Shown here piece after piece: positions 592 to 31,465 of a DNA stretch of 31,465 bases (position 1 is the first letter of the stretch; the number at the start of each line of letters is the position of its first letter). This stretch comes from a virus. The notes under the pieces were generated by a model. That model was not told where the DNA came from, did no database searches, and saw only the letters and a list, made by a program, of their open reading frames with translations. Location: the IMG/VR virus record IMGVR_UViG_3300020457_000046, positions 1 to 31,465 of that record, one strand, 5' to 3'. The position numbers were made by a program, and so were the translations under genes.

Positions 592-786
592 CTATTTTGA
601 TGCTATTTGTTTTAGCAAATTCTTTATTTCTTCAATATCTCTTTTCATACTATCTATTTCATCTCTCTCAATCTTTTTTTGATTTCTTCGTTGTTTATAC
701 TGAGAGTATCCAAGACTATCACAATTAATGATAGCCCCAGATTTTTCATCTCTGTATAAGTTTTTGTGACCCTCTACTGGTATCAT
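592..786 (-). CDS. Small coiled-coil protein, 64 aa, of the late block
   Basis: The protein begins MIPVEGHKNLYRDEKSGAII, continues with 'NCDSLGYSQYKQRR', and ends in a charged helix from about residue 35 to 63 with heptad-like spacing (I-x-x-x-I-x-x-x-K...I-x-x-I-x-x-L-L-x-x-I). A short N-terminal motif followed by a coiled coil recurs in small proteins of cyanophage structural clusters; I know no assigned function. Its ATG overlaps the stop of the 2357-residue gene as ATGA, so it is probably translated by coupling. It may be a minor virion component or an assembly factor; this is inference from position only. Confidence 0.6.
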   Translation of the reverse strand: MIPVEGHKNLYRDEKSGAIINCDSLGYSQYKQRRNQKKIERDEIDSMKRDIEEIKNLLKQIASK

Positions 787-12400: not shown

Positions 12401-15400
12401 ACCAACTCTGCTAATCTTCATAAACTCATCATCAATTTTAATTATATCACCTGATGTAATTGATGATAATCCAGTTACACTAAATGTTGTTGCAGAATTT
12501 GTAATATTAAATTCTAAATCAGTTGTAATTGGAGTAAATGCTATTGGAGATTGAATTACACCATCAATTGATAATAATGCTTTTTCATTCTTCTTAAACA
12601 TTTCAAATTCATGAGCATTACCAGTTCCTACACCAGTGAATGTAATAGCAATACCTGCTAATGAGTCAGGATGAGATTTTGATATTTTAAATGTATCTTT
12701 GTTTACTCTAATAGCATAAACTTCAGATCCTAGAGTTCCTCCAGCAGTTGCAATTCCTGATAAAGATATACCAGTAAATGTTGAGCCAGGATTATAAACT
12801 AATCTTTCTCCAGTTTCAAAGAAGTGATCTATGATTGTAAATAAACCAGTAGCTGGATTTAAGGTTGCTGCATCTGATGGATTGAATTGTTTTTGGAATA
12901 TTGGTTTTGAATTACTCTGTAAAGCAAAACTTGTTTTATTCGATCTTGTTCCATTAATAGCATCGTATTGTGCGAATGATAATGATTCAGTAACTGTACC
13001 ATATTGTAAATCTGGTGGTATGTTAAGAAGATCAGTTTCAGAGTAAAATGCCTCTGTAAATGTTTGTACCTGAACACTATTAGTTCCACCACTAAAGAGT
13101 GGATCAGGATGGAAATTAAGATTTAAATCATTACCGACAATTGTTGATGAGAATGTACCTATACCTGATGTACTTCCAATTGATAAGAATGGATATTGTG
13201 TTATATGTGAATCAGTTGAATCATGTGCAACAAGAACTTGATGAAGTGAACTTGTAGATCCACTAGAAACTCTTACAAAACCTTTTAGTGAAGATATCTC
13301 ATTTTCTGTAAAGGATGCAATGGTTGATGATGTAGAAACATTTGAGAAATTAGATTCAAATCTACTTGTTTTTTCAGTTCCTTCTAATTGACCTGGTAAT
13401 TTAAATCTGTAAGTTCCTATTCCAGCAGCAGTTGTTCCTATTCCAATAACTCTTGATCTTACTAATACTTCATTTGCCTGATCATTTTCAAACTCTAATG
13501 ACAATACATTAGATGAAATACTTGAAATAAATGTTCCAATAAAGTTAGATGTTGGACCATCTATACTATCAGCATAGAATTCAGAGATGAATGAGTTTGT
13601 TCCATCATGTGTTAAATATAAATCTACAAAATTTGTTTCATCTGTAGTTACATTATTAACTTCAATTGACGCAAATAAAGCATCTGTATTGTTAACATCT
13701 GTTGAAATTATAAGTGATGTAGTTGCTGTTGATACAGTTGTATTAATACCAGATAGATTAATGAAACCTATTGATTGTGTTCCAATACCTGTTAGATTTG
13801 TATTGAATGAAGTTTCAAGTATTTTTAAATCGTAGTCGTTATTATCAGGATCATCTGGTGTGAAGTTTATACTAATATTACCTGAAGCATCAATGTTTCC
13901 TTTGATTTCTCCCAACTCTGATGAAGTAGTATGAATCTTAGATCTTTCAGCAGTAAATACATCAAGATCGTCTTTATATAAGATAATATCAGAAATTTGA
14001 GTATTTTTATTATTTGGATTTCTTGTTTGAATTAAGAAAGTCGCATATCTTGTATTGATTGATAAATCAAGGAATTTTGATAATGTAGTAGCTGTATTTG
14101 AAAACAGTCTACTTATATCATCTATTTCTAAAACTCTATTTGTTCTACATTCGATATATGGTGATAATTTTGTATTTTTTAGTTTAAGGAATTTAGATTT
14201 ACCTTCAACTGTATCAATATCCAAAGCAAAATCAAAATTATTAATTGTATCTACTCTTTTTTCATCAATAAAGTCTAGTGCAAGAACATCAGTGAAACTA
14301 GATGTAGTAACACCAGCATTTGTTACAGATGAAATACCAACATCAGCAAAGTTTTTAAGACCAGTAGTATGAAGTAATCTATTTACAGGATTAATTAAAT
14401 CATCATAAGATATTCTACTTTTTACACTATATGATAAGTTTTGATAGTAGTCATTATCAGGTGTAACTTGATAATCTTGATTTAATTTTCCGATGTCATC
14501 ATTCCATCCTTGATCTTGACGTAATGAATAATTTATTTCAAAAATACCACTATTTTTTGATATGGTATTAATAGTTGCGATATTACCTGAAATAAATCCT
14601 TTAATTAACTGACCAGTAACTAGGTTAAATGAACCAGGTATTTCTTCTTCTATTTTTATAAACTCATTTGTTGATTCTGATATGATAAGATCTACTGGTG
14701 TATATTCTGTTCCTACGAATGCCAATAATTTTTCACCAACACTAAACTTAGAAATTGACTGTGTTACTTTAAATACAGGATAATCATTTTTACTAATAAT
14801 AACACCGAAGGAGTTTTGAACTGTTTTTGCAATACCAGCATTTGTTGTGAATGGTGATAAATCAAATTCAATTGTAGCTGGGTTTGTATTATTAACACCA
14901 GATATTTTAAAGAATTTAAATCCATTATCAGCAGAGTTGAATCCAGATCCAGTAGTTTCAAATTTTTGAAGACCTTCAACAAATATTTCCTCATTTACAG
15001 AGAAAGGTGCGGTGGAAAATCCTAGTACTGGTGTTACAAGAGTACAAGTTGCTATTCCAGATGCAGAATTATAGTCTAACTTACTTACTGTTGAACCATT
15101 GCTATTATTGACTGCAAATATATCATGAGTAACTGATTGTAAACCTTTAGGTGCTACAACAACATCAACAGTTGTTAATGAACTACCATTCAATCTACCA
15201 GCAATAATTGCACCAGATACATCTTCTGAACCTGTTAATGGATTTACTATTTTTAAATCAGGTACTGTTGTATAATTTTTACCACCATCAACTACTTCTA
15301 TGTTGGTAATTGTATTAGAATTAATAATTGATATTACTGGAGAAACAAATGCCTCTGGTTTTAATGTTGGATCTGAAGAATATTCAAAACCAGGATTTAG

Positions 15401-18400
15401 AATCCTTACGTCATCAACTCTGTTTATTGTATTAGAGTCTGGTAATAAAGTTGCGTTTGTTCCTTGAGTTGATGCAATACTTACGAATGAAGGTAAACTA
15501 TCATATCCGACTCCACCAAAATCAATACCAACTTTATCAATTGCTCCCTTAGCTCTGGATGATTTAGTTGTATATTTTAAAACACTAGTTTCAGTAGAGG
15601 CATATGATAATTTTTCAGGCACTTCATTCAATGAAATACTAAAACTTGTATATGATATTCCAGGTGTTGGAACATCGAATATACTATACTGACCACTATA
15701 CTTACTATCAATATAATTGATTCTATTATAGTTTAGAACGTCCGTATCAGATGTGCTTATGAAACCTGATTTTTTAAGATTATAAAAGAGTATTGATGGA
15801 TTATCGTTTGAATAATTTAATGTAAGAGTTGCAGTTGAAGTAATTCCTACTGTACCCACTCCTATGACTTGTAAGTTTGTAGTATTACCAACAGAAACAA
15901 ATTGATTTTTATAATCTTGATCATAGAAAATATTTAAGTCATAACCAGCAAGTGATGAGTGACCTACACCGAAAACTAAATTGTTTTCTCTTAAAACTGA
16001 TATAGATGGATTTATTAGTGAAAATTCATGTACACCACCTGTTGAACTTAATTCAATTGCAGTAGATGGATTGCTAGTTACATCAAGAAGTGTCTCACCT
16101 AATTTAAAATTATTATCATCAACTTTAAACACAAAATAAGATTCGTTGTTTACTAAACCTTCTGATACTGATGTTGAAGAATATTTAACTTTATCACCAG
16201 TTTCTAAATTGTGTTCAACAATATTAAAGTTATTTGTTGCAGTCGTAACTCCACTTGATGGACATGAAATTGGATTTACCAATATTGATTGAGTTGTTTC
16301 ATCAAATCTTAAATCAATAGATGATGATGTTCCAATACCTACTGATGAATTAGGTGTTAAATTAAGATTAATTATATCACCATCAAGTAAGTTATGGGCA
16401 GTTGATACTGAAACTACTGCATCTATACGTTGTAAGTTTCCTGTTATTTGTGTTGGATTTGATTCAAAGAGATATTCAAAACTACTTGAACCAACTGTTG
16501 TATCACCAACAAAAGATAATCCGTCTGAACTTGTTGTTAATCCAACTTGAGTTACTATTCCAATATAATCTTTTGATTTTCTTATTACAAATACGTCTTG
16601 AGTATTTCCTGATCCTGGTATATTAAATGTTGTGACTCCATCATCTTTAGATACTGTTAATGCATAACCAACACTTGGTTTTGTTAATGTAACTCTTTGA
16701 TTTGTTTTAAACGGATGATTTGGTAATCTTATACTTCTTGTAGGTGTTGAAACCACATTTACTAAATCACCTAATGTAGAGGTTGCAGTTGATCCTAAAC
16801 CAACAACTGTACCAACACCTACTGATTCATGAGGATTGAAATATACTTGTTCCTTTATACTAGAATCAAATAAATTAGATCTTAGTGGTATATTGAAGAA
16901 ACTTGGTATTAAACTTACCTTAGAGGATACTGTATGAACACCAGATGATACACCTCTTCTTACTCTTATTATATTATTTTCGTTGAATGTATTTAAAACT
17001 AGTAATTTTTCAGTTCCAATACCAACACTACTACCTACAGAAACATGAGTTGGTATATGAGAAACATATATGTCAGTTACAATACCAGTGGTTGAAGAAT
17101 TGGGAATCTCTTGGTATACAACTGTTTGTGCAGTATCAATTCCAATTTGATGAGATCCTGCTAAACCTTTAATTAATGAAGTGCTTAATCCAGATACAAC
17201 TACATTATCACCACCATTTAAACTTGGAGCAGTAGAAATATATGCAGATACATGTTCAGAATCTCTCCAAACAAAAACAACATTTTCATATGTATCGACT
17301 GTTGTAACAACGGATTCAACAGACTTTCCTTGTAAACTCTTTACTGATACACTTAGTCCACCACCATTTGTATTAGAATTGTCAAAGATAGCAGCATCAC
17401 CTATCTCATAGTTATCACCAACATTAATAATATCAATAGAGTTAACTGAACCTGATGTTGTAGATTCAACTATTGATGATTGTGTTGTTATTTCATTTGA
17501 TTCAATAATAAAATCATTATCAGCAAATTTATCAGATACCTTATAAGGATAACTATTTCTTATTAAACTTGAATTATCAAAATCAAAAGTATTCTGATTG
17601 ATATTAAAGTTCTCTGTAGATGGGTTTGATCTATAAGATTCTCCTATGAAATATGGGAAAGATGGAAGTAATGAATTAGTACTGATACCTACGAAATATG
17701 CATATGTTCCATTTGGATATTCTGGTGTTCTACCATATCTACCGTTATGTACATCTAAATCACCTGCGTTTGTAAACTTATGATCTTCTACAAAAAATCC
17801 ATTACTAAATCCAGTTGGTCTATTAGTAATATTAGATGGATCTAATACATAACCACTATTTAAAATTCTTACTGCAGAGTTATCATCATTAGGATCACTA
17901 TAACCATATGGTCCATATATTGGATTACCATCATATGCCCATCCTATAATTGGTGAGTGTCCGTTACCAGTATCACCAAAACTATCATTTCCTATTTGAG
18001 TAGAGTATCCAACTATTGAATATTCTAGTTTATTATTAGTTTCAATAAGTGCTTCATTATTATATCTTGCAAAAGTATTAACCACAAGTCCTCTTGTACT
18101 TGCTTCTAGTTTACAACCTGTGCCTGGTGGTACAACTTTAATATCAATTTTATCTTGTTGATATTGTAGTCCACCATCTAAAATAATTACTTCAGTTATT
18201 TTTCCATCAGTAACTACAGCTCTAAGTTTTGCTCCTAATCCAGTTCCAATACCTACAACTTGAAGATCAGGTGCAGATGCATACTCACGACCTTTTGTTT
18301 GTATCTCTACATATGATATTCTTCCATCAGTAATGATTGGTTTTAGTTGTGCTTCTTTTCCTGTTTTTATAGTAACGGTTACTGACTTTTCAAGATTAAG

Positions 18401-21400
18401 AATATCAGATCCATATCCAGTTCCTTTTTCATAAAGTAAAACATCAGATATTGATCCTCTAACAACTGGTGTTGCTGTAATAATTCCTACATCTGTATTA
18501 GCAAGTTCATATTTTAAATTTAACTTGACATCAGGATATTTGAAAACTTGGAAACCTGTTCCCTGATCAGAGAATTTTAAATAATCTTTTCTGTTAAATT
18601 CTGATTTAATAGTTCCACCAAGACCAGCATTAACAATTCTAAAAGCATCACTATTAACTTTTAATACTTGATAGAAATTAGAAGTTGTAGTAATACCTGT
18701 AGATGTTGTTAGACCTGATATTGTTGTTGGTAATGTAGAACCTATTCCAACTGCTGTTGAATATACAATCTTATCACCATGATTAAATCCATGATCATCA
18801 AAATGAATTGTATTTGTTATTGTATTAATACCTGTTGGTTTAACAAAAACTTGTCTATTTTGATATCCACTTCCACCATCTATAACTCTTATATCTCTTA
18901 GAGTTTTCTGATCACTTAAAAGTCTAAATTTATGAACACCAATTTTATTAGTTGTTGTAAATCCGACAGTATTAATACCAGTATTATAATCGGTTTCAGT
19001 TTGGAATAATTTGATTGTAGTTGGATTTACTACTAATGGGAAATAAGTAGCAGCATTTACTAATGTAGTAGTTCCTAATCCTACTACTGATGTACCACTA
19101 TCATTACCTACTGTTCCAACACCTAATGGAGGATTGTTGTTTCTGTCATAAACAATAGGTTGTCCACTAACAATATTATGTTTATCAAGGAATGTAATAG
19201 TTTCATCAATATTATCAACACCACCAGACTCTGTAAGTAATCTTGCATCAAATGATATTTCTCTTCTTCTCTCTGTCAATACTGGTTCTAAAATAGCACC
19301 TGAACCATTTCCACCTTCAATAGTAACTGATACTACTTTTTGTATATCAAAATTTTGTGGATCTACCTGTACATCTTTTATATTACCTGTAATAACTGGT
19401 CTTAATAAGGCATTTGTATTACCAACACCAGAATTTGATAACTCTATGGTTGGTGGTTTTAATACATCATAATTTGATCCACCATTTAATAATTTAATTT
19501 GTTCTAAAGGTCCAAAGAATATTTTATCTTCAGATTTATAGTTTCTAACCTCAACACCATTTATTAGCATTCCAGTTGTACCAGGTGTAGTTACAACTGA
19601 TGAAGAATTTGTTAGATTTGGATTAAGAGAGAATTTCTTTAATAATTTTTGTGGAGCTATTTGTTGCTCTATAATTCCTACAAGTGAAAATGTATGAGTT
19701 CCTGAACCTGATGGCAATGCTTCAAATTCCTCATAATCACTTATGGGTATGAATGATCTTGATCTATAAAGACGTATTTGGTTTGGATTACTTAATACTT
19801 CAACAAAATATGAAGACTGTGGTAAATTAGGTAAAACAGTTCCCTGTGCAGTATAGAATATTTCATCTCCAGTTATAAATGGAACTGGACTTGGAAATGA
19901 TAGAATATTATACTTTAAAGTATTTGGATCATAACCTGATTGTGGTAATTCATTACCAGCAATTGCATTTGGTAATATTGCTTTTGGTAATGATGCAGTA
20001 ATTTTATATGATGGTAATGAATTTGAAGCAACATAAAAATTAGCATTTGATTCATTATATACATTGGTTACATCAGTTGTTAATACGTTATTACCAAATT
20101 CAATATCAGCAGTATCACTAAATGCACGATTTATAACTCTTCTTAAGTCATATTCTCTATTTGGATCTGGGAATAGAGTTATACCTGGTTGATTTGTTAA
20201 ATTATCAATAGATATTGTTCCTGTGGGTTTATCAATATTTCCTACAGTACCTGTTGCTATTTTTGTTTCTTCGTTTCTAAATAAAACCTCTACATTATCA
20301 CCAATTTTTAAACTTGACTTATCAATATCTCTTGTGAATAAAACAATATTAGCACCAGAGATACTTTCTATTTGAAATCTTGATGAAGTGTTATAAATCC
20401 ATGAATTTGCAAATATTTGCTTTCTTGTTTTATTTTCAATTGGGTTTAGTATTTTTTCTCCAACATTTCTTACACTTATCTTTTCTCCCTCTGTCAATAA
20501 TCGAATATCTGATGTAGGAACAAATTTAGACAGAACACCTGTTAATCTTATCTCAACTTTTTTACTTAAATCTCCGTTTTCATAACCAAAATAAAATTCA
20601 TCAGATCTAACATCTTCAGTAGATGATATTGTATCAACAATGTTTTCACAACCCAAGAATTGATTAACTGATTTATCTTTATAGAAGATATTTGTGCTAA
20701 TACCAGATATTAAAGTACCTGTTTGACCAAATCCAACTGTTGAATCAACTGTTATAACTGAGGAACCAGCTGAAACATTACCAATAGATTTAGTTTTGCC
20801 AGGAATGTTAAATGTTCCTTCAATAAGGTCTACTTCATTGAATCCAACGAATAATGCGATTTTATAATATACCTTTCCCTTTCTTGTAAGTGGTTCTACT
20901 TCTGATATAGATGCTCTAGTTGCAGAATCATTTGATTTAATTATTGTTTGACCAACTAAATTGATTGGATTGCCAGATATTGCTTCAGCAAGAATAATTT
21001 CTCTTCTTATGTACTCTGCAGAAGATGGTTTGATTAAAAATTGCTCTAAATCAACAATTGTTGGTGTTTCATTATATAATACATTGAATAAAATTCTAAA
21101 TGACTCTTCTGTACCTTTTGATTGGTATAAAGACTTAGAATTTTTAATAAAATTGCTTACATCTAAGTTATTGACAAAATCAACATTCTCTAAACCAGGT
21201 GTAAGTTGCTTTTTGGTCTTTTTATAAAATTCCTTTAAAAATAATGCACTTAAATTGATAACAGTTGCATCATCTTCATGATTTATTGCTGATGAGTCTG
21301 TGAATACTAATTCTGTAGGATTGTTATCAGCATGATAAGTTGTAATTCCACTAAAACCACGAATACAACCAGTAAAACTATTAGTTGTAATACCTGTATA

Positions 21401-21727
21401 TGTTATAACTTCATCATCAATCTTAAAGAGACCATATTCATTAGGAAATCCCTTTGTAGTACTGACATTTACCGTTGTTGCTGTGGTTGTAATGCCACTA
21501 GTTAACTTTGTTTCACCTACAACTACTTCAGGAGTTAAATTATCTAATTTTATGTACTGATCAAGATTATCAGTCAGGTCAATCGGACCTCCCTGATATT
21601 CCTGTGAAATATAGTATTGTTTTAAAAAATCTACTGCCTTTGGACTTTCAGATAGTAAAAACTCAGGTATTTGGTTTTCAATTATCTGTTGGACTTTGAC
21701 TCTCTTATCAATCCCAGTGGTGATCAT
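9455..21727 (-). CDS. Giant baseplate/virion structural protein with YHYH-like domain, 4090 aa
   Basis: The gene lies between gp6 and gp8, the slot of T4 gene 7 (1032 aa), but is four times longer. Residues 1-250 form an N-terminal region ('IPEFLLSESPKAVDFLKQYY', 'SKGTEESFRILFNVLY') that I associate with cyanophage baseplate structural proteins. At about 1255-1345 sits a YHYH-type domain: 'H-S-P-I-I-G-W-A-Y-D-G-N-P-I-Y-G-P-Y-G-Y', later 'L-D-V-H-N-G-R-Y-G-R-T-P-E-Y-P-N-G-T-Y-A-Y'. The rest is beta-rich and carries two recurring motifs. 'GG-x-x-Y' repeats occur near 751, 951, 1104, 1187, 2149, 3472, 3846 and 3891. 'H-x-x-x-T/S-G-x-x-V-x-Y' modules occur near 854, 981, 1841 and 2969. One base separates it from gp6. 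A wedge or gp7-like role is inferred from position; the start and reading frame are unambiguous. Confidence 0.82.
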   Translation of the reverse strand: MITTGIDKRVKVQQIIENQIPEFLLSESPKAVDFLKQYYISQEYQGGPIDLTDNLDQYIKLDNLTPEVVVGETKLTSGITTTATTVNVSTTKGFPNEYGLFKIDDEVITYTGITTNSFTGCIRGFSGITTYHADNNPTELVFTDSSAINHEDDATVINLSALFLKEFYKKTKKQLTPGLENVDFVNNLDVSNFIKNSKSLYQSKGTEESFRILFNVLYNETPTIVDLEQFLIKPSSAEYIRREIILAEAISGNPINLVGQTIIKSNDSATRASISEVEPLTRKGKVYYKIALFVGFNEVDLIEGTFNIPGKTKSIGNVSAGSSVITVDSTVGFGQTGTLISGISTNIFYKDKSVNQFLGCENIVDTISSTEDVRSDEFYFGYENGDLSKKVEIRLTGVLSKFVPTSDIRLLTEGEKISVRNVGEKILNPIENKTRKQIFANSWIYNTSSRFQIESISGANIVLFTRDIDKSSLKIGDNVEVLFRNEETKIATGTVGNIDKPTGTISIDNLTNQPGITLFPDPNREYDLRRVINRAFSDTADIEFGNNVLTTDVTNVYNESNANFYVASNSLPSYKITASLPKAILPNAIAGNELPQSGYDPNTLKYNILSFPSPVPFITGDEIFYTAQGTVLPNLPQSSYFVEVLSNPNQIRLYRSRSFIPISDYEEFEALPSGSGTHTFSLVGIIEQQIAPQKLLKKFSLNPNLTNSSSVVTTPGTTGMLINGVEVRNYKSEDKIFFGPLEQIKLLNGGSNYDVLKPPTIELSNSGVGNTNALLRPVITGNIKDVQVDPQNFDIQKVVSVTIEGGNGSGAILEPVLTERRREISFDARLLTESGGVDNIDETITFLDKHNIVSGQPIVYDRNNNPPLGVGTVGNDSGTSVVGLGTTTLVNAATYFPLVVNPTTIKLFQTETDYNTGINTVGFTTTNKIGVHKFRLLSDQKTLRDIRVIDGGSGYQNRQVFVKPTGINTITNTIHFDDHGFNHGDKIVYSTAVGIGSTLPTTISGLTTSTGITTTSNFYQVLKVNSDAFRIVNAGLGGTIKSEFNRKDYLKFSDQGTGFQVFKYPDVKLNLKYELANTDVGIITATPVVRGSISDVLLYEKGTGYGSDILNLEKSVTVTIKTGKEAQLKPIITDGRISYVEIQTKGREYASAPDLQVVGIGTGLGAKLRAVVTDGKITEVIILDGGLQYQQDKIDIKVVPPGTGCKLEASTRGLVVNTFARYNNEALIETNNKLEYSIVGYSTQIGNDSFGDTGNGHSPIIGWAYDGNPIYGPYGYSDPNDDNSAVRILNSGYVLDPSNITNRPTGFSNGFFVEDHKFTNAGDLDVHNGRYGRTPEYPNGTYAYFVGISTNSLLPSFPYFIGESYRSNPSTENFNINQNTFDFDNSSLIRNSYPYKVSDKFADNDFIIESNEITTQSSIVESTTSGSVNSIDIINVGDNYEIGDAAIFDNSNTNGGGLSVSVKSLQGKSVESVVTTVDTYENVVFVWRDSEHVSAYISTAPSLNGGDNVVVSGLSTSLIKGLAGSHQIGIDTAQTVVYQEIPNSSTTGIVTDIYVSHIPTHVSVGSSVGIGTEKLLVLNTFNENNIIRVRRGVSSGVHTVSSKVSLIPSFFNIPLRSNLFDSSIKEQVYFNPHESVGVGTVVGLGSTATSTLGDLVNVVSTPTRSIRLPNHPFKTNQRVTLTKPSVGYALTVSKDDGVTTFNIPGSGNTQDVFVIRKSKDYIGIVTQVGLTTSSDGLSFVGDTTVGSSSFEYLFESNPTQITGNLQRIDAVVSVSTAHNLLDGDIINLNLTPNSSVGIGTSSSIDLRFDETTQSILVNPISCPSSGVTTATNNFNIVEHNLETGDKVKYSSTSVSEGLVNNESYFVFKVDDNNFKLGETLLDVTSNPSTAIELSSTGGVHEFSLINPSISVLRENNLVFGVGHSSLAGYDLNIFYDQDYKNQFVSVGNTTNLQVIGVGTVGITSTATLTLNYSNDNPSILFYNLKKSGFISTSDTDVLNYNRINYIDSKYSGQYSIFDVPTPGISYTSFSISLNEVPEKLSYASTETSVLKYTTKSSRAKGAIDKVGIDFGGVGYDSLPSFVSIASTQGTNATLLPDSNTINRVDDVRILNPGFEYSSDPTLKPEAFVSPVISIINSNTITNIEVVDGGKNYTTVPDLKIVNPLTGSEDVSGAIIAGRLNGSSLTTVDVVVAPKGLQSVTHDIFAVNNSNGSTVSKLDYNSASGIATCTLVTPVLGFSTAPFSVNEEIFVEGLQKFETTGSGFNSADNGFKFFKISGVNNTNPATIEFDLSPFTTNAGIAKTVQNSFGVIISKNDYPVFKVTQSISKFSVGEKLLAFVGTEYTPVDLIISESTNEFIKIEEEIPGSFNLVTGQLIKGFISGNIATINTISKNSGIFEINYSLRQDQGWNDDIGKLNQDYQVTPDNDYYQNLSYSVKSRISYDDLINPVNRLLHTTGLKNFADVGISSVTNAGVTTSSFTDVLALDFIDEKRVDTINNFDFALDIDTVEGKSKFLKLKNTKLSPYIECRTNRVLEIDDISRLFSNTATTLSKFLDLSINTRYATFLIQTRNPNNKNTQISDIILYKDDLDVFTAERSKIHTTSSELGEIKGNIDASGNISINFTPDDPDNNDYDLKILETSFNTNLTGIGTQSIGFINLSGINTTVSTATTSLIISTDVNNTDALFASIEVNNVTTDETNFVDLYLTHDGTNSFISEFYADSIDGPTSNFIGTFISSISSNVLSLEFENDQANEVLVRSRVIGIGTTAAGIGTYRFKLPGQLEGTEKTSRFESNFSNVSTSSTIASFTENEISSLKGFVRVSSGSTSSLHQVLVAHDSTDSHITQYPFLSIGSTSGIGTFSSTIVGNDLNLNFHPDPLFSGGTNSVQVQTFTEAFYSETDLLNIPPDLQYGTVTESLSFAQYDAINGTRSNKTSFALQSNSKPIFQKQFNPSDAATLNPATGLFTIIDHFFETGERLVYNPGSTFTGISLSGIATAGGTLGSEVYAIRVNKDTFKISKSHPDSLAGIAITFTGVGTGNAHEFEMFKKNEKALLSIDGVIQSPIAFTPITTDLEFNITNSATTFSVTGLSSITSGDIIKIDDEFMKISRVGLGTTSVGPISETGSVSLVVVERGAIGSAATSHSSGATSRLFSGGYNIVDSTIHFTDAPRGTNTTQKTQANLDPLKSTFNGRVYLRQDYSTNTIFDDISDSFTGIAATLPVKVGGASTSGIQTGSTMLLLNGIFQTPSTFNNFGNNYEFAESGGASNVIFTGITSSNGTKIISDVDVNQNQLPRGGVIVSLGSTGGLGVAPLLGAKVSAITGAGSSIIGIVGVPTTGQTFGISTASFNNLTGQLEVTTSTNHNFRNINEFVRFDGLVFNPVLGIETNRSFSVTGILSTTTFTTNVGTSTVSHAYVGAGTVFEFQGDNTFGSGYRHPVSVAVTDRSGSGSGAAVSVVVGAGGSLAFTIDSNGTGYTDPVITIPEPSYSNLPITGVSRRGIGATTDTGTGSSVSVTIGAANTSVGIGSTLFTVSNFVLENSGYNFKVGDVFKPVGLVTAKGLSSLVTEFELTVTEVFRDQYSSWNFGQFDFIDSIKDLQDGVRKRFPLIFNANLLSFEVDENNPDSSLINLDALLLIFINGVIQDPGDAYTFDGGTSFEFSQAPDPEDIIDIFFYQGTSGVDSVRVAAGSSVSPTIQTGDIVQIFKLNNDSGITTTQKQRTIYTISASDEVETNLYTELGVDERNFKPFNWTKQKVDKKVNGEIVFKSRDSIEAQVYPTAKIIDDITTTDNEIFVDNAKFFNYEEDFSSLVVGSVGGLIVGSTDPVAAAFTAVVSAAGTISSLSITNGGSGYVGSTTSISISAPHAIGVGVGTTSSATATITNGVITSTTITNPGFGYTFTAVPQVLAPLPNAIKEDIDTITAVEGFDGDIIGIAVTDGIGHPLALKFTLNVDLTNNPNSVASDLKVGYPVHIFETQVGHGVTSVVSDNATIVSTGTTCVDNIYFVNAYNAGVGIITCNIMTGVNTTGVNTSVGVGTAIGGFSWGRLSGFTRGLNPISIGVTGLTIDSGLTTYPSIQRRDFGLRDNGSLRKDLG

Positions 21728-27367: not shown

Positions 27368-27431
27368 ATGCAACTTATATCTCGCTTCCGTAACACTTTG
27401 TAGGTTAGGTTCCCTATGCGTTTTTATAAAC

Positions 27432-27449
27432 GGGGGCATCAACGCCCCC
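27432..27449 (-). terminator. Stem-loop after the nucleotidyltransferase gene
   Basis: GGGGGC and GCCCCC pair as a 6-bp all-GC stem with a 6-base loop, 12 bases past the stop at 27461. It is followed on the minus strand by CGTTTATAAAAACG, which lacks a clean U-run but holds a TATAAAA box. The stem-loop-then-TATAA layout resembles the cassettes further right, though the GACAGTT palindrome is missing here. Confidence 0.55.
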
Positions 27450-27460
27450 AACTGCTGTAA

Positions 27461-28333
27461 TCACGAACGAATGATATTAAAGTTGTATCTGCTGAAGGTC
27501 TCCCTGTCCACCAACTTATATGTTCCGTTGAATCCGTGCATAACATACCCCTCCCCTGAGATGTAGTCATTGCCTAAGAAGCAATCAGCATCAAAATTAT
27601 CTCTCATTCTCAGCATAAACTCCTCCTTGATTTTCTTCACAAGTAACCACAACCGCACCAACTGATAGTTTGCGAACTCCTCCGCAACTACCTCATCTCC
27701 GTCACGAATGTACGCATTAAGATCAATTTTAATTTGCTTTGCTTCTTTCTCTGTGGCAAAGTCAACTAAGGTTGCCATCTGACGGGCAAACTGTATTAAC
27801 TGTGAGATGTTATGCCCTGCACCCAACTCAGATAACCACGCATCAGGTTGAACAAAACCCTCCCCCAACTTATCCAATAGGGGTGCTGCTGTCATTGTTT
27901 TCATTGTCTCCCCTGTGTACTCTGTATGAGGTGCAACGACTACTCCCGTGTTCTGAACTTCAGTAAATGTGTAACTAATTGCATTTGGTTTGTAATCTCT
28001 GTAACCACCGAACCCAATAAAGTCCCCTTGAAATATTCTGTCTGTACGGGGTAAGCAATTAAAACACCTGTGCAAAATGCCACTTAGTTCAATGTTGTTC
28101 CCGTGATTGCGTTCGATGTCCTCATTACTGTAATTAATTTTTGGGGTTCTCTTATTAAACACGGACTTCGTGCCAACAAAAAACTTTCCATTCTCTGGGT
28201 TAGTTCCCCATACAACTGCGGGCGATCCGTCTATCTTAACTGAGTAATGATTGTTAGACTCAAACGCATTGAGAACAGATAGATCCCCTGTAAGGATCGT
28301 ATCTTCTGGGTGTTCGATGTGGAGGTTTTTCAT
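27461..28333 (-). CDS. Covalent nucleotidyltransferase, RNA/DNA-ligase-like, 290 aa
   Basis: The ligase-superfamily motifs occur in order. Motif I is 'V-K-I-D-G-S-P-A' with the candidate AMP-accepting Lys33. A motif Ia/III-like 'F-F-V-G-T-K-S' follows, then 'F-Q-G-D-F-I-G-F' near 101-108. Motif IV is 'G-E-G-Y-V-M-H-G' (E261) and motif V is 'Y-K-L-V' (K273). No C-terminal domain follows motif V, so it is a compact catalytic core. Likely roles are RNA or DNA end-joining or nick repair; the substrate cannot be read from sequence. I start it at the ATG at 28333, one base after the upstream stop. A frame reaching 28426 adds 31 residues that overlap the upstream gene by 92 nt and do not resemble the family. 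Confidence 0.68.
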   Translation of the reverse strand: MKNLHIEHPEDTILTGDLSVLNAFESNNHYSVKIDGSPAVVWGTNPENGKFFVGTKSVFNKRTPKINYSNEDIERNHGNNIELSGILHRCFNCLPRTDRIFQGDFIGFGGYRDYKPNAISYTFTEVQNTGVVVAPHTEYTGETMKTMTAAPLLDKLGEGFVQPDAWLSELGAGHNISQLIQFARQMATLVDFATEKEAKQIKIDLNAYIRDGDEVVAEEFANYQLVRLWLLVKKIKEEFMLRMRDNFDADCFLGNDYISGEGYVMHGFNGTYKLVDRETFSRYNFNIIRS

Positions 28334-28334
28334 A

Positions 28335-28586
28335 TTAGGCAAAAATAGGGTTTGCGTACTTACTGCAAGGGTGTGGATTTTCTGGGGTGCAACCGAATGA
28401 AGCAAAAAACGAATCCATCTGCTCACGGTCTACCTCTGGGTCGTCGAAGTCAACTCCCCCTGCGTGATCTACTCCCCACTCTGCAACTTCAATTTCAAAA
28501 GTTTCAAAGTCTTCGCATAGAAAAGCAACGTCATAAAAGGACTCTTTTTCTTTGATGCGGTTGATGAGTGTTTGAGTTTTGTTCAT
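28335..28586 (-). CDS. Unrecognised acidic protein, 83 aa
   Basis: The protein begins MNKTQTLINRIKEKESFYDV and is acidic in the middle ('EDFETFEIEVAEWGVDHAGG', 'VDFDDPEVDREQMDSFFASF'). It contains three Cys residues, two of them near the C-terminus ('FGCTPENPHPCSKY'), which might bind a metal or form a disulfide; only two lie close together, so a zinc finger is not supported. It is the last gene behind the cassette at 28597 and stands one base before the nucleotidyltransferase, suggesting they share a message. No family is recognised. Confidence 0.65.
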   Translation of the reverse strand: MNKTQTLINRIKEKESFYDVAFLCEDFETFEIEVAEWGVDHAGGVDFDDPEVDREQMDSFFASFGCTPENPHPCSKYANPIFA

Positions 28587-28596
28587 TCTGTTCTGT

Positions 28597-28654
28597 GGTA
28601 TGTACTTATTATAATGGTTAATGGGGTCAGTTGTGACCCCTTGTGTGACGGTTT
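28597..28654 (-). promoter_or_regulatory. Regulatory cassette 1 (half palindrome, stem-loop, TATAAT box)
   Basis: The minus strand reads a degenerate half-site (AACCGTCACAC, near 28643-28653), a 7-bp stem GGGGTCA/TGACCCC with a 4-base loop (28623-28640), then TATAATAAGTACATACC (28613-28597). It sits between the 83-residue DUF7249-like gene and the unrecognised 83-residue acidic gene. The -10-like hexamer ends 21 bases before the start codon, and no obvious Shine-Dalgarno site follows. Confidence 0.6.
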
Positions 28655-28904
28655 ATAATTCGTCCATCATCTCCTGCATTTCTTCAAAGTTTGCTTCGTC
28701 CCACTTTGCTCCGTCGGGTGTTTTGTCGTTGCCCATTTCTTTGATACAATCAACGAACTCCCCGTAATCTCTGTAATATCTTGCTAAATTATAAAAACCT
28801 TCGTCCCCTCCTATCCATAACGCACAGTTCCATGTAGTCCAGTCTGACCATCCATTATATTCTGTTCTTGGTGTGTCTGTAAGGTTGATTGCTGTTTGAA
28901 ACAT
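28653..28904 (-). CDS. Small phage protein of the DUF7249-like 'GWSxxxTWNxALWI' type, 83 aa
   Basis: Residues 15-45 read 'Y-N-G-W-S-D-W-T-T-W-N-C-A-L-W-I', 'D-E-G-F-Y-N-L-A'. I recognise this as the signature of a short protein widespread in phages ('GWSNYETWNVALWI' in many relatives). The function of the family is not established. The C-terminal part is acidic and helical. The start is set by AAAAGGAGTT eleven bases before the ATG, and cassette 2 supplies the promoter. The TAA stop lies at the edge of cassette 1. Confidence 0.72.
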   Translation of the reverse strand: MFQTAINLTDTPRTEYNGWSDWTTWNCALWIGGDEGFYNLARYYRDYGEFVDCIKEMGNDKTPDGAKWDEANFEEMQEMMDEL

Positions 28905-28920
28905 GAAGTAACTCCTTTTG

Positions 28921-28990
28921 TGTATGTACTTATTATAACGGGTAGTATGTGAGGTTACTACCCGTGATGTGCCACTTTGTGAACTGTCAC
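28921..28990 (-). promoter_or_regulatory. Regulatory cassette 2 (palindrome, stem-loop, TATAAT box, SD)
   Basis: On the minus strand the order is palindrome GTGACAGTT-CACA-AAGTGGCAC (28990-28969), a 9-bp stem CGGGTAGTA/TACTACCCG with an 8-base loop (28939-28964), then TATAATAAGTACATACA (28937-28921), followed by AAAAGGAGTT before the next ATG. The TGA stop of the upstream gene (28989-28987) lies inside the palindrome. The palindrome stands 31 bases from TATAAT. Confidence 0.68.
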
Positions 28991-29226
28991 TTAAACGCTG
29001 TCAGTGGGTGTGGTCGGTTGTTACAGTATGAAAGTTCAGTTAAATAAACCCCCATATAATTCTGCACCTTATCAAAGAGTTTAGAAACTCTCTCATCTTC
29101 GGTTTTGCCTTCTGCACTCCAGACTCCTAACCCGTTATCAGACTTCCACTCAAGGTCTTTGATCTCATCATCGTTCTTGAACTTTGTGTCAAAACCGATC
29201 TTCTCAACAATGTAAAATTTATTCAT
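28987..29226 (-). CDS. Unrecognised small protein, 79 aa
   Basis: I choose the ATG at 29226 (MNKFYIVEKIGFDTKFKNDD) because GGAGG lies ten bases before it. The in-frame ATG five codons upstream contains that Shine-Dalgarno sequence in its own codons and would overlap the previous gene more. The protein is beta-alpha in pattern, with 'G-L-G-V-W-S-A-E-G-K-T-E-D-E-R' in the middle and a helix before 'Y-L-T-E-L-S-Y'. No family is recognised. Its start follows the 43-residue gene's stop by one base; its stop is embedded in the palindrome of cassette 2. Confidence 0.65.
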   Translation of the reverse strand: MNKFYIVEKIGFDTKFKNDDEIKDLEWKSDNGLGVWSAEGKTEDERVSKLFDKVQNYMGVYLTELSYCNNRPHPLTAFK

Positions 29227-29227
29227 C

Positions 29228-29359
29228 TTACTTACCTCCATTGAATTGTTGAATTAAAGTGTCTGTATGCTTATCCTGTCTCTCTATCAATTCATCACAC
29301 ATTCTGATTAACCTTCTTAACTCCTCAACATCCTTGTCAAATTGTTTTGTGGTGTACAT
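29228..29359 (-). CDS. Small coiled-coil protein, 43 aa
   Basis: ATG at 29359-29357 opens 43 codons ending in TAA at 29230-29228. The product begins MYTTKQFDKDVEELRRLIRM and continues 'CDELIERQDKHTDTLIQQFN'. This is an almost continuous helix with hydrophobics at 3-4 spacing, likely a short coiled coil. AAAAGGAGTTCTTC precedes the start, and cassette 3 lies just upstream. The end of the gene (GGAGGTAAG) doubles as the Shine-Dalgarno site of the next gene. The function is unknown. Confidence 0.65.
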   Translation of the reverse strand: MYTTKQFDKDVEELRRLIRMCDELIERQDKHTDTLIQQFNGGK

Positions 29360-29375
29360 GAAGAACTCCTTTTGT

Positions 29376-29443
29376 GGTATACATTTATTATAATGGATAC
29401 GGGGACGAATGGAAGTCCCCGTGTGACAGTTCTTAAACTGTCA
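29376..29443 (-). promoter_or_regulatory. Regulatory cassette 3 (perfect palindrome, stem-loop, TATAAT box)
   Basis: This is the best copy. On the minus strand a perfect palindrome TGACAGTT-TAAG-AACTGTCA (29443-29424) is followed by an 8-bp stem ACGGGGAC/GTCCCCGT with an 8-base loop (29399-29422), then TATAATAAATGTATACC (29392-29376) and AAAAGGAGTTCTTC before the ATG of the 43-residue gene. The upstream nuclease-like gene stops six bases before the palindrome. Confidence 0.7.
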
Positions 29444-29448
29444 TACAC

Positions 29449-29946
29449 TTACTTGATTCTCTCTCCGTGTGTGATAATGTCTCTCATAGGTATGGAAACT
29501 CCGATGCGTGGGTCTTTTCCAAATCCTTTCTGTTTTTTTGGATACTGTTTTTTAATCTTAGGTAGTAGTAATGCTAATACGTCTTTTGCACTTAGTTTCC
29601 ATACTTCTGCAATTTTACCACCGTCATAACGTGCATAATAATGATTTTCATATTTTCCGATTTTATCCTTTAAAATATACTCCTCCTGTTCCTCCCACGT
29701 ATCCTGTACCGATATTCCGTTATAGGTTGCGTTTATATTCTTACCTATGGTTGATTTGTATTCACATTCTCCGATTTCGTCAAATGCGTCTGCACCTGAG
29801 TAGTCTTCCGCAACTTTGTGACCTAATACCCCTGCCATATGGATTTCTCTTGAACGTGCATATGAGAACGGATCTCCCCAGTTGTTCTCTTCACATAGGG
29901 TGTACATCTCTTCAAATAGTTTTTGAAACTTTTGTTCTGGTGTCAT
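29449..29946 (-). CDS. Candidate PD-(D/E)XK nuclease (restriction-endonuclease-like), 165 aa
   Basis: Residues 31-66 read 'R-S-R-E-I-H-M-A-G-V-L-G-H-K-V-A-E-D-Y', 'S-G-A-D-A-F-D-E-I-G-E-C-E-Y-K-S-T'. A helix Glu (E34), an Asp before a hydrophobic strand (D53) and E62-x-K64 at the end of the next strand fit the PD-(D/E)XK catalytic layout of type II restriction and related phage nucleases. 'G-K-N-I-N-A-T-Y-N-G-I-S' follows, then a mixed helix-strand half with a Lys-rich segment (residues 129-144) that could contact DNA. The small size suits a dimeric site-specific or recombination nuclease. No methylase or other partner lies nearby. The assignment is from motif spacing only. The gene sits between cassettes 3 and 4. 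Confidence 0.55.
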   Translation of the reverse strand: MTPEQKFQKLFEEMYTLCEENNWGDPFSYARSREIHMAGVLGHKVAEDYSGADAFDEIGECEYKSTIGKNINATYNGISVQDTWEEQEEYILKDKIGKYENHYYARYDGGKIAEVWKLSAKDVLALLLPKIKKQYPKKQKGFGKDPRIGVSIPMRDIITHGERIK

Positions 29947-29955
29947 TTGTTTGGT

Positions 29956-30004
29956 GGTGTATACGTTTATTATAAAGGATACGGGAACTGATTAAAGTCC
30001 CCGT
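29956..30004 (-). promoter_or_regulatory. Regulatory cassette 4 (stem-loop and TATAAT box, palindrome decayed)
   Basis: The minus strand has a 9-bp stem with one mismatch (ACGGGGACT against AGTTCCCGT, loop TTAATC; 29981-30004), then TATAATAAACGTATACACC (29974-29956), leading to the nuclease-like gene. Where the palindrome is expected the sequence is only AAGTTAATGTA, so the operator is lost or unrecognisable. No Shine-Dalgarno site precedes the ATG. Confidence 0.55.
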
Positions 30005-30013
30005 TACATTAAC

Positions 30014-30256
30014 TTAATATTCTGATACAATTCTCAACCAACTCCAAACCTCTGATTTGGTTAACCATCCTCTAACGTCCTGCCATTCGTGGTCGTCATA
30101 GTGTAACTGGTCTCCCTTTAAAAGTGCAATCTCATAAAGTCCCTCTTTACCTCCATAAGAATGTTCATGACAGGCAACTGAGAGACCATACCCATTCTCA
30201 CAATAGTAACGAACCACTTCGTCATTTGGTCTGATTACTCTTTTTTCAGTGTACAT
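30014..30256 (-). CDS. Small phage protein 'NGYGxSVxxHxxSYGG' type, 80 aa
   Basis: The protein begins MYTEKRVIRPNDEVVRYYCE and continues 'NGYGLSVACHEHSYGGKEGL', 'YEIALLKG'. The block 'N-G-Y-G-x-S-V...H-x-x-S-Y-G-G-x-x-G-L-Y-E-I-A' looks like a compact beta domain that recurs in small early proteins of marine T4-like phages; I know no function for it. The C-terminus 'D-V-R-G-W-L-T-K-S-E-V-W' is helical. The leader AAAGTTTAAAAACT before its ATG is nearly the same as that of the 42-residue gene at 30722, with no Shine-Dalgarno site. Confidence 0.65.
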   Translation of the reverse strand: MYTEKRVIRPNDEVVRYYCENGYGLSVACHEHSYGGKEGLYEIALLKGDQLHYDDHEWQDVRGWLTKSEVWSWLRIVSEY

Positions 30257-30275
30257 AGTTTTTAAACTTTGTTTG
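30254..30275 (-). repeat. Duplicated leader sequence, copy A (copy B at 30720-30741)
   Basis: The 22 bases around the start codon of the 80-residue gene (minus strand CAAACAAAGTTTAAAAACT then ATG) recur at 30720-30741 before the 42-residue gene with one mismatch (AAAG against AAGG). The two genes' products differ, so the shared part is the leader itself. Confidence 0.6.
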
Positions 30276-30343
30276 TTATGTACTTATTATAAACAATAGT
30301 GAGAGTAAAATAAACCCACTATGTGCCACTTTGTTAACTGTCA
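30275..30343 (-). promoter_or_regulatory. Regulatory cassette 5 (palindrome, stem-loop, TATAAT box)
   Basis: On the minus strand TGACAGTT-AACA-AAGTGGCAC (30343-30323) is followed by a weak 6-bp stem ATAGTG/CACTAT (30296-30322), then TATAATAAGTACATAAC (30291-30275). The TAA stop of the 42-residue membrane protein (30336-30334) is inside the palindrome. The palindrome lies 31 bases from TATAAT. Confidence 0.62.
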
Positions 30344-30462
30344 TACTGATTCTTATATTTGTCTACGGATCGCCTATAATCCATTTCGGTTGCAATTGCC
30401 ATTCCTACTGTATAAAGTGCATAGCACCCACCGATTAAAATAAAAAGTTCAATTCCAGTCAT
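30334..30462 (-). CDS. Single-pass membrane peptide, 42 aa
   Basis: ATG at 30462-30460 opens 42 codons ending in TAA at 30336-30334. Residues 4-24 (IELFILIGGCYALYTVGMAI and one more residue) form a clear transmembrane helix, followed by a charged tail 'TEMDYRRSVDKYKNQYDS'. The start follows the previous stop directly (TAAATG), and GAGAGGAC stands eight bases upstream as a Shine-Dalgarno site. It probably inserts into the host inner membrane with the charged end in the cytoplasm; the role is unknown. Its last codons form part of the palindrome of cassette 5. Confidence 0.65.
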   Translation of the reverse strand: MTGIELFILIGGCYALYTVGMAIATEMDYRRSVDKYKNQYDS

Positions 30463-30603
30463 TTAAAAGTCCTCTCTGAATAGTTGGTAATAAAGATCAT
30501 TCATAAGACCAACCTCAAACGATGTGCTTGCGTGTTGGTCGGTTACTCCTTCGTAACATTTTAGGATTTCGTCGTATCCGTCGAACTCATACATCACTGG
30601 CAT
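30463..30603 (-). CDS. Small protein, 46 aa
   Basis: ATG at 30603-30601 opens 46 codons ending in TAA at 30465-30463. The product begins MPVMYEFDGYDEILKCYEGV and ends 'MNDLYYQLFREDF'. CAGGA lies just before the start; an ATG three codons further in is an alternative. Its start lies 10 nt inside the 42-residue acidic gene upstream, and its end abuts the membrane peptide gene, so three tiny genes (30722 to 30334) form one coupled operon. No family is recognised. Confidence 0.58.
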   Translation of the reverse strand: MPVMYEFDGYDEILKCYEGVTDQHASTSFEVGLMNDLYYQLFREDF

Positions 30604-30722
30604 AAGTCCTGAAATCTGTTGTTTGCGATTTCGATTTGCTTCTCTTCGTCAAGGTAAGGAAAGTTCTCCTGTACTTCGTCAAAGATTTCAAGTAGCATAT
30701 CTTCGTGGTGTAGTGTTGACAT
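30594..30722 (-). CDS. Small acidic helical protein, 42 aa
   Basis: ATG at 30722-30720 opens 42 codons ending in TGA at 30596-30594. The product begins MSTLHHEDMLLEIFDEVQEN and continues 'FPYLDEEKQIEIANNRFQDL'. It is acidic and largely helical, of the kind often found among small phage early proteins. The leader ACAAGGTTTAAAAACT precedes the start; it carries AAGG but with long spacing. It is the first gene after cassette 6, whose leader is unusually long (about 110 bases). The function is unknown. Confidence 0.58.
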   Translation of the reverse strand: MSTLHHEDMLLEIFDEVQENFPYLDEEKQIEIANNRFQDLCQ

Positions 30723-30820
30723 AGTTTTTAAACCTTGTTTGATGTAATGTTTTAGAGGACTTACATTTAGAAAAAGGGATTACTTTTGCTCTGTTTCAGC
30801 ACTACCTTAATCAAGTTTGC

Positions 30821-30890
30821 CTCTATATTCTTATTATAATGGATATGGGGACTTGTGGTAGTCCCCGTGTGCCACTTTATTAACTGTCCA
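30821..30890 (-). promoter_or_regulatory. Regulatory cassette 6 (palindrome, stem-loop, TATAAT box, long leader)
   Basis: On the minus strand TGGACAGTT-AATA-AAGTGGCAC (30890-30869) is followed by a 7-bp stem GGGGACT/AGTCCCC with a 6-base loop (30847-30866), then TATAATAAGAATATAGAGG (30838-30820). The following 98 bases before the next ATG hold no convincing gene; AGAGG then TTG could start a 15-codon peptide, which I regard as too weak to call. The TAG of the 61-residue gene lies directly beside the palindrome. Confidence 0.65.
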
Positions 30891-31076
30891 CTAATTGTAG
30901 ACAATTACTTGAAAGTGTGAATTAATAAAGTCATCTTCTTTTTTTCTTTTTCTGAGTTCGTTTTCGCAGTCAAATAATCTCTGATCCTCTTCGGGTGTGT
31001 TTAATGCTCTGAGTGATGAGAGTGCTTTCACGATTGCTTTTAACTCTTCTGTGGTTCTGTGTGATTGTGGATTCAT
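30891..31076 (-). CDS. Small helical protein, 61 aa
   Basis: I start it at the ATG at 31076 (MNPQSHRTTEELKAIVKALS) rather than at a TTG three codons upstream, because that ATG overlaps the stop of the 18-residue ORF as ATGA. Residues 8-48 are a charged helix pair ('TEELKAIVKALSSLRALNTP', 'EEDQRLFDCENELRKRKKED'). No family is recognised; such small helical proteins are common among phage host-takeover genes, but nothing specific shows here. Confidence 0.6.
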   Translation of the reverse strand: MNPQSHRTTEELKAIVKALSSLRALNTPEEDQRLFDCENELRKRKKEDDFINSHFQVIVYN

Positions 31077-31129
31077 AGGAAACAAATAATAACGATGATG
31101 TAAAGAAAGATTGCTGTTGGTATATTCAT
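31073..31129 (-). CDS. Possible 18-residue hydrophobic peptide
   Basis: ATG at 31129-31127 reads MNIPTAIFLYIIVIICFL and stops at TGA (31075-31073), overlapping the next ATG as ATGA. The composition is that of a bare membrane span. A TATAAT (31130-31135) abuts the ATG, so that hexamer could not promote this ORF, and no Shine-Dalgarno site is visible. It may be real, driven from the promoter in cassette 7, or chance. Confidence 0.35.
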   Translation of the reverse strand: MNIPTAIFLYIIVIICFL

Positions 31130-31140
31130 ATTATAACTAC

Positions 31141-31362
31141 CTAAACCAACTTGTCTAGGTAGGTTTGTGCCACTTCTTTTGCTGTCCCACCGTCTATCCA
31201 TTTGTTGATGTGTCGTGATGTAGTTACTGACCACCACTTTTCTGTTTTTACAAATCCCTCTCCAAATACGTATGCCGCCACGGGTGTGCGGTAGGAAAAT
31301 AAAATTCTTGCTTCAGAAGTTTCAACCTCTGTCATGTTTGATGCGATTGGTGTTAGTTGCAT
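31141..31362 (-). CDS. Small conserved phage protein (DUF8033-like), 73 aa
   Basis: The protein begins MQLTPIASNMTEVETSEARI and has the block 'I-L-F-S-Y-R-T-P-V-A-A-Y-V', 'K-T-E-K-W-W-S-V-T-T-S-R-H-I-N-K-W-I'. I associate this 'SYxTPVAAY ... TExxxSxTTSRHINKW' pattern with a small protein family spread across many phages (I believe DUF8033); its function is unknown. The start is fixed by AAAGGAG seven bases before the ATG, behind cassette 7. Ten bases separate it from the next possible ORF. Confidence 0.7.
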   Translation of the reverse strand: MQLTPIASNMTEVETSEARILFSYRTPVAAYVFGEGFVKTEKWWSVTTSRHINKWIDGGTAKEVAQTYLDKLV

Positions 31363-31378
31363 TAATGCTCCTTTGTTT

Positions 31379-31446
31379 GGTATGTACTTAATATAACCCC
31401 CATTTTGAAGGAATGGGGAAACCTTGTGCCACTTTCTAAACTGGTC
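31379..31446 (-). promoter_or_regulatory. Regulatory cassette 7 (palindrome, stem-loop, TATATT box, SD)
   Basis: On the minus strand GACCAGTT-TAGA-AAGTGGCAC (31446-31426) is followed by a 7-bp stem CCCCATT/AATGGGG (31398-31418), then TATATTAAGTACATACC (31395-31379) and AAAGGAG before the ATG. A gene cut by the right edge probably ends at one of the two TAG codons at 31448-31446 or 31438-31436, inside the palindrome, as in cassettes 2 and 5. Too little of it is present to call. Confidence 0.6.
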
Positions 31447-31465
31447 TACAGATACCCTGCAAATT

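Follow-up and report, generated by a model that had tools for sequence, protein, structure and literature searches.

Which signals separate the small genes at the end of the 31,465-base IMG/VR virus record IMGVR_UViG_3300020457_000046 (the window, analysed at its full length), and do they control these genes, exchange them, or both? The window is a fragment of a genome, and between 28.6 and 31.45 kb its minus strand carries eight units, each with a hairpin, a TATAAT-type box and a short leader, set in a series of small genes. The units are real and widespread; they form a compact promoter in which the operator has a rigid position and the hairpin may be missing, and which also acts as a cassette border. 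We read them as compact junctions in which a 24-bp palindromic operator and a -10 promoter at a fixed distance from it, with or without a hairpin, mark the border of a gene cassette and depend on an activator, and we assign this reading a probability of about 0.6. It suggests a shared control signal and a gene-swapping route in marine cyanophages. Positions 27400-31465 are distantly matched at the nucleotide level by 85 phage records, each named Synechococcus, Prochlorococcus, cyanophage or marine virus, and one of the ten window proteins scanned is a baseplate wedge protein, the others belonging to phage families mostly without known function; we take the source to be a T4-like cyanomyophage.

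Architecture and spread of the units

Firstly, the repeated modular cassette proposed by the first-pass annotation was borne out. With a profile trained on units of other contigs (the training set includes the close relative L030), seven units scored 29.0-55.8 bits, against a best combined score of 5.7 bits in 100 dinucleotide-shuffled windows. Seven copies had been claimed; minus-strand reading and profile together give eight, with the 5' ends of their -10 boxes at 31395 (TATATT), 31135, 30838, 30291, 29974, 29392, 28937 and 28613. The order of palindrome, stem-loop and box assigned to every copy is complete in six units, in which the 24-bp upstream palindrome is good (43.8-55.8 bits); it is degenerate in the unit at 28613 (29.0 bits) and absent from the one at 29974. 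Contrary to the description, not every unit is strictly intergenic: that at 31135 is contained in the 3' end of the open frame before it. All eight hairpins fold, seven with z < -3 against shuffles and that of unit 1 with z = -0.9. A strong -10 occurs in all eight boxes and, when a simple consensus rule is applied, a -35 in two; the last element, formerly termed an extended -10 box, corresponds more closely to a -10 with discriminator and initiator. In the rest of the window the operator-plus-box scan, to which operator-less units are invisible, gave no site above 8 bits apart from register shifts of known units and two plus-strand sites reusing unit palindromes.

Secondly, the distance between palindrome and box is nearly constant. 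After collapsing, 396 unit matches left 299 distinct units with the consensus TGTGMCASTT-N4-AASTGKCACA, followed after 29 nt (212/299) or 30 nt (70/299) by TATAATAAGTACATAC. Among 106 loci, all 117 exact pairs of AGTGGCACA and TATAATAAGTACATA within 0-100 nt were 29 nt (80) or 30 nt (37) apart, and with the shorter box 160 of 162 pairs of GTGGCACA and TATAATAA lay at 29-32 nt. In the whole collection the shorter pattern occurred in at least 120 stretches at the true spacing and in at least 120 at an out-of-phase spacing, and the spacing claim rests on the other counts. Pairs whose spacer folds into a strong hairpin were 29-31 nt apart in 65 of 65 cases, and those with weak folding 29-32 nt apart in 46 of 48. 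Because the distance to TATAAT stays at 29-30 bp with or without the hairpin, the palindrome belongs to the promoter, and the added shared operator that had been proposed is confirmed in this sense. When TATAAT is counted as -12 to -7, a pyrimidine occupies -1 in 93% and A occupies +1 in 85% of units; the A of Y-ATA is the predicted +1, which places the operator at about -65 to -42 and gives a leader of about 20 nt. The median distance from -10 box to start codon was 33 nt, with a gene in reach in 322 of 450 units. This count, like the alignment-end and neighbour tests below, covered L009-L114, four named-phage stretches and the window; here and in the neighbour and mirror-box tests genes were plain ATG open frames of at least 40 amino acids, called without a gene finder. 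The -35 is weak: among the 224 units that fold strongly or weakly, 141 match TTGACA at best in 3 or 4 of 6 positions.

The hairpin is optional. In 109 of the 299 spacers the fold is equalled by no more than one of 60 shuffles; 136 fold more strongly than -6 kcal/mol and 88 more weakly than -3 kcal/mol, and box and spacing are alike in both groups. In some spacers the hairpin is followed by a T-run, a putative terminator packed between operator and -10 (G005:C1:175904-175947, P-SSM7 1545 and P-SSM2 53931). T4-type phages reportedly carry promoter-early stem-loop (PeSL) cassettes, said to have been described by Arbiol in 2010 and Comeau in 2014. The first-pass annotation called this precedent 'PeT'; the literature name, according to the available text of a citing paper, is PeSL. 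As far as the available accounts go, both systems place a promoter and a stem-loop between small genes of variable regions, with genes swapped between units, and a stem-loop beside a promoter, repeated between small genes, is what all eight window units present. The units differ from PeSLs in the 24-bp palindrome at a fixed distance upstream, in the occurrence of mirror -10 boxes, and in a hairpin that is optional, occupies the -35 region and often lacks a T-run. New here are the mirror boxes, the rigid spacing of the operator and the fact that a hairpin may be missing. In the available part of PMC4503421, PeSLs are judged too sparse in cyanophage S-PM2 to account for gene gain, whereas seven unit-like sites were found there in the present search.

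The units could nevertheless be plain PeSLs, with a host sigma70 early promoter and a stem-loop terminator, in which the palindrome is secondary (an UP-like element, a terminator extension or a recombination hot spot). Order and gene context are those of PeSLs, whole-gene indels occur at the units, and some hairpins have T-runs, for example in P-SSM2, P-SSM4 and P-SSM7. Yet palindrome and spacing persist at the weakly folding spacers and the palindrome shows no RNA covariation, and it seems rather unlikely that the units are no different from PeSLs. Another possibility is that the palindrome acts as an RNA hairpin, one half of a double terminator, as its perfect form would fold. Covariation was, however, 0.02 bits across the dyad, with 0.195 bits within the right half and 0.024 bits within the left half. 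The commonest combinations at symmetric pairs are mismatched (114 units have A/G at one pair, 133 have G/G at another), and no compensatory changes across the dyad occur in the present unit set. Since the halves vary independently across the dyad, the palindrome is not considered an RNA stem, and its being half of a double terminator is very improbable; the pattern would fit protein-DNA recognition better than RNA pairing.

Copies in related cyanophages, for which the first-pass annotation had proposed a scan, were found in environmental and in named genomes. An IMG/VR search allowing 20-50 nt between the two exact motifs yielded 106 stretches, one of them (L011) being P-SSM7. Behind these stretches, which are not an independent sample, lie 11 large records with between 2 and 13 units per record, most of them on the same strand. 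With a looser pattern, unit-like sites occur in eight of ten named phages, all eight cyanomyoviruses: P-SSM2 (11), P-SSM7 (8), P-HM2 (7), S-PM2 (7), S-CRM01 (4), P-SSM4 (2), Syn9 (2) and P-TIM68 (1); T4 and P-SSP7 had none, and reversed-pattern controls gave 0 in all ten. In annotated stretches the units are found in runs of small unknown genes. A unit precedes the helicase gene in P-SSM2, and in S-PM2 units precede CobS and also two small genes ahead of the DNA polymerase gene gp43. The T4-GC 330 gene, which follows gp32 directly in P-SSM4 and with one gene between them in P-SSM7, is likewise preceded by a unit. In the inspected stretches, a subset of the units, the first gene behind a unit was never an annotated virion gene; in P-SSM4 a gene annotated gp7 is the second behind a unit.

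Candidate regulator and known promoters

The palindrome at about -42 to -65 would bind a dimeric regulator. The -10 box 29-30 bp away is strong, of the sigma70 type, and has an initiator, whereas the -35 would be weak or have its place taken by a hairpin serving to end or stabilise the transcript from upstream. An activator is the most likely kind of regulator, given the rigid spacing, the weak -35 and the location of the site upstream of the -35/-10 region; a rigidly spaced upstream site with a weak -35 is more typical of positive control. Palindromic operators are common among repressors, and the site could instead serve a phage or host repressor that later shuts off a default-on -10 promoter; between mirror boxes it could silence two promoters together. 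The same rigid upstream position and weak -35 argue against repression, which we regard as unlikely.

The symmetry of some sites would also suit a dimeric regulator able to place the polymerase on either side. Thirteen of the 299 units had no upstream sequence, and the remaining 286 collapsed to 270 operators. A TATAAT-like box (at least 5/6 matches) lies 29-31 bp from the other side of the palindrome in 61 of these, whereas 46 other offsets gave 9.3 on average and 17 at most; the 61 include groups of related sites, and independent cases are fewer. The mirror box of the window sits in open frame C42b and may also have been kept there by coding constraint. Opposite-strand boxes at the mirror distance, mostly with no gene start behind them, were seen in L009, L011, L037, L041, L069, L080 and others.

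Host sigma70 promoters with activator sites of the NtcA and CRP types carry a palindromic site upstream of the -10, as the units do. The unit palindrome, however, is not GTA-N8-TAC, and its TGTGA/TCACA halves are separated by 14 bp instead of 6. A promoter of a host regulon would moreover be expected in host genomes. In 151 genomes of the Cyanobium family, which presumably includes Prochlorococcus and marine Synechococcus, the unit pattern had 6 matches and the reversed control 4, that is, no enrichment, and the regulator is therefore probably phage-borne. The palindrome alone, searched across 84,980 species with a single genome per species, was present in 44 stretches against about 4 expected by chance from a uniform-base estimate. 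Cyanobacteria or Acidobacteria are named in the titles of 31 of the 44; one stretch (L164) is from a Cyanobium, whose family is the one searched above; none is titled Prochlorococcus or Synechococcus, with the family not given for L129, L137 and L158. Their gene contexts are unlike one another (44 by mechanical check, neighbour proteins of 22). Six of the stretches lie in one Pyrinomonadaceae metagenome-assembled genome, SSF56 (L127, L134, L138, L144, L156 and L159), and others in L125, L128, L151 and further cyanobacteria.

The units may bear on how the prereplicative genes of cyanophages are timed. Marine T4-like cyanophages express early, middle and late genes (PMC5082946, PMC5780444; both as far as available) and, according to the accessible text of the latter, are without T4-like middle promoters and motA and/or asiA. 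In agreement with this, MotA and AsiA families were found in 0/7 cyanophages other than the source of the window, and were recovered in T4 as positive control. T4 middle promoters, with their MotA box and sigma appropriation (PMC2988021, available in part), resemble the units in combining a good sigma70 -10 with a phage-specific element at a constant distance upstream, and in lacking a real -35. Their MotA box has its centre at -30, some 12 bp before the -10, whereas the unit element is a 24-bp palindrome of other sequence, centred near -54 and ending 29-30 bp upstream. Tentatively, the units may represent the missing prereplicative promoter class of cyanomyophages, in which a phage dimeric activator near -54 replaces MotA/AsiA at -35-less, sometimes bidirectional promoters and the same element is an exchange point. 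Such an activator, probably phage-encoded, would switch on many small prereplicative genes together. The palindrome-plus-spacing element was not found described in the literature searched, which was covered in part and without the Syn9 transcriptome paper, and half-site sequences searched in papers gave no cyanophage title among the matches listed. As a conserved and rigidly spaced operator-promoter, the unit gives an immediate handle on regulator and regulon.

Gene gain, loss and exchange at the units

Gene order and the E165 locus were compared across L009-L114, the named-phage stretches, the window and L180-L291. D80 and F43 occur in window order in 12 contigs; E165, a gene of 165 amino acids, is present between them in L030 and absent from 11 (L042, L043, L045, L059, L060, L071, L074, L086, L099, L110 and L288, of which L042 and L110 are apparently the same sequence). 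The junction lacking E165, read in 10 of the 11, consists of a single unit with an upstream part equivalent to that of window unit 5 and a leader into F43, closest in L071. Because this junction joins a unit 5-like start to the F43 leader, E165 and unit 6 form an indel with its ends inside unit sequence, a difference in gene content between close relatives of the kind the first-pass annotation had proposed to look for. Orthologous junctions differ in operator, hairpin and leader, each varying by itself, and their stems are in different registers. Similar units also stand before unrelated genes: the sample holds 18 units of the GGGTTTATTTT type, and the sequences that follow them are of five kinds without relation to one another, and unit pairs that are 85-95% alike over 70 nt have unrelated downstream DNA in 138 of 341 cases. 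Among pairs at least 95% alike over the same length it is unrelated in 1 of 207. Both counts come from a strict recount and replace 150/341 and 6/207, which contained gene-calling artefacts. Alignment ends, with alignments above 97% identity or below 200 bp excluded here and in the neighbour test, fall in unit zones in 16.3% of cases, against 6.4% at shifted positions (maximum 7.8% in 200 shifts). Similar units would provide short homologies through which recombination adds, removes or swaps whole genes and leaves their regulation undisturbed.

Several results weigh against the reading as a whole. Of the common control proposed earlier, the fixed spacing and the occurrence across cyanomyophages stand, but the regulator searches supplied no candidate: HTH_3 and Crp-type helix-turn-helix (HTH) families gave nothing above the curated cut-off in eight phages, with one sub-threshold HTH match in P-SSM2 and one in T4. 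Unit 5 (29974) has hairpin and box without an operator, and the orthologous junctions read are also without one. A gene start lies within 120 nt on both sides of 1 of the 61 bidirectional operators. The likeness to promoter-terminator cassettes extends to the folding of the hairpins but mostly not to a T-run, since TTTT follows the stem in 16 of the 136 strong hairpins and six of the eight window hairpins fail a weak T-tail rule that two pass. Among ten loci with E165 homologues, a full unit lies directly upstream in four (P-SSM2, L080, L247 and L258). Recent movement of units was rare in the sample, as 206 of the 207 near-identical pairs share related downstream DNA. Unit zones contain 1.34 alignment ends each, unit-less intergenic starts 0.95 and the background 0.44, and some of the ends may reflect rapid change of hairpins, not rearrangement. 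Conservation of the neighbour was 0.43 across a unit, against 0.46 on the other side of the gene (33 families), that is, no excess turnover, and the downstream neighbour was retained more often by genes followed by a unit (0.72 against 0.50, 39 families).

The counts of near-identical pairs and of ends at unit-less starts, together with the two neighbour comparisons, the second opposite in direction, could imply that the units are inherited by descent in gene-dense regions with ordinary gene turnover, and that their borders have no special role in exchange. We find this rather unlikely, as the end points of the E165 indel lie within unit sequence, the pairs at 85-95% identity so often stand before unrelated DNA, and hairpin, operator and leader vary separately at orthologous junctions. 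The exchangeable cassettes of the first-pass annotation are therefore retained with respect to indels among relatives, units before unrelated genes and the enrichment of alignment ends, and not with respect to excess turnover of neighbours. The units are sites where exchange has occurred, perhaps no more often than at other junctions of the same regions.

Features of the window

The order in the window is A73 U B64 U C42 C46 C42b U D80 U E165 U F43 G84 U H83 U I83 J321, where U is a unit; coordinates are collected in Table 1.

Table 1. Coordinates of the eight units and of the genes between them in the window.
Feature	Position	Strand	Basis
Unit 1 palindromic operator	31425..31448	-	Profile scan
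Unit 1 hairpin	31397..31419	-	Folding, z = -0.9 for 31397-31430, weakest of eight
Unit 1 -10/initiator (TATATTAAGTACATAC)	31380..31395	-	Reading and profile scan
Gene A73 (phrog_5643)	31141..31362	-	Open frame and protein family match
Unit 2 operator, within end of gene A73	31165..31188	-	Profile scan
Unit 2 hairpin, includes A73 stop codon	31137..31162	-	Folding, z = -3.2
Unit 2 -10/initiator; -35-like TAGACA at 16 bp	31120..31135	-	Profile scan and -35 rule
Small open frame B64	30891..31085	-	Open-frame list
Unit 3 operator	30868..30891	-	Profile scan
Unit 3 hairpin	30847..30866	-	Folding, z = -3.9
Unit 3 -10/initiator	30823..30838	-	Profile scan
Small open frames C42, C46, C42b	30334..30722	-	Open-frame list
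Antisense TATAAT at mirror position of unit 4 operator, inside C42b	30375-30380	+	Mirror-box search
Unit 4 operator	30322..30345	-	Profile scan
Unit 4 hairpin	30296..30322	-	Folding, z = -3.8
Unit 4 -10/initiator	30276..30291	-	Profile scan
Gene D80 (phrog_4074)	30014..30256	-	Open frame and protein family match
Unit 5 hairpin, without operator	29981..30004	-	Folding
Unit 5 -10/initiator	29959..29974	-	Sequence reading
Gene E165 (phrog_35715), cassette present/absent among relatives	29449..29946	-	Protein family match and locus comparison
Unit 6 operator; holds perfect palindrome GACAGTTTAAGAACTGTC except at centre	29422..29445	-	Reading and profile scan
Unit 6 hairpin	29399..29422	-	Folding, z = -3.9
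Unit 6 -10/initiator	29377..29392	-	Profile scan
Small open frames F43, G84	28987..29359	-	Open-frame list
Unit 7 operator	28968..28991	-	Profile scan
Unit 7 hairpin	28938..28965	-	Folding, z = -5.3
Unit 7 -10/initiator	28922..28937	-	Profile scan
Gene H83 (phrog_871)	28653..28904	-	Open frame and protein family match
Unit 8 operator, degenerate (right half AACCGTCACA)	28644..28667	-	Profile scan, 29.0 bits with box
Unit 8 hairpin	28623..28640	-	Folding, z = -3.9
Unit 8 -10/initiator	28598..28613	-	Profile scan
Gene I83 (phrog_9580)	28335..28586	-	Open frame and protein family match

Elsewhere on the minus strand, open frames of 4090 and 2357 amino acids extend over 9455-21727 and 783-7856 with no operator-bearing units inside them, and the protein encoded at 24579-25235 matches phrog_3704, a phage family annotated as ferredoxin.

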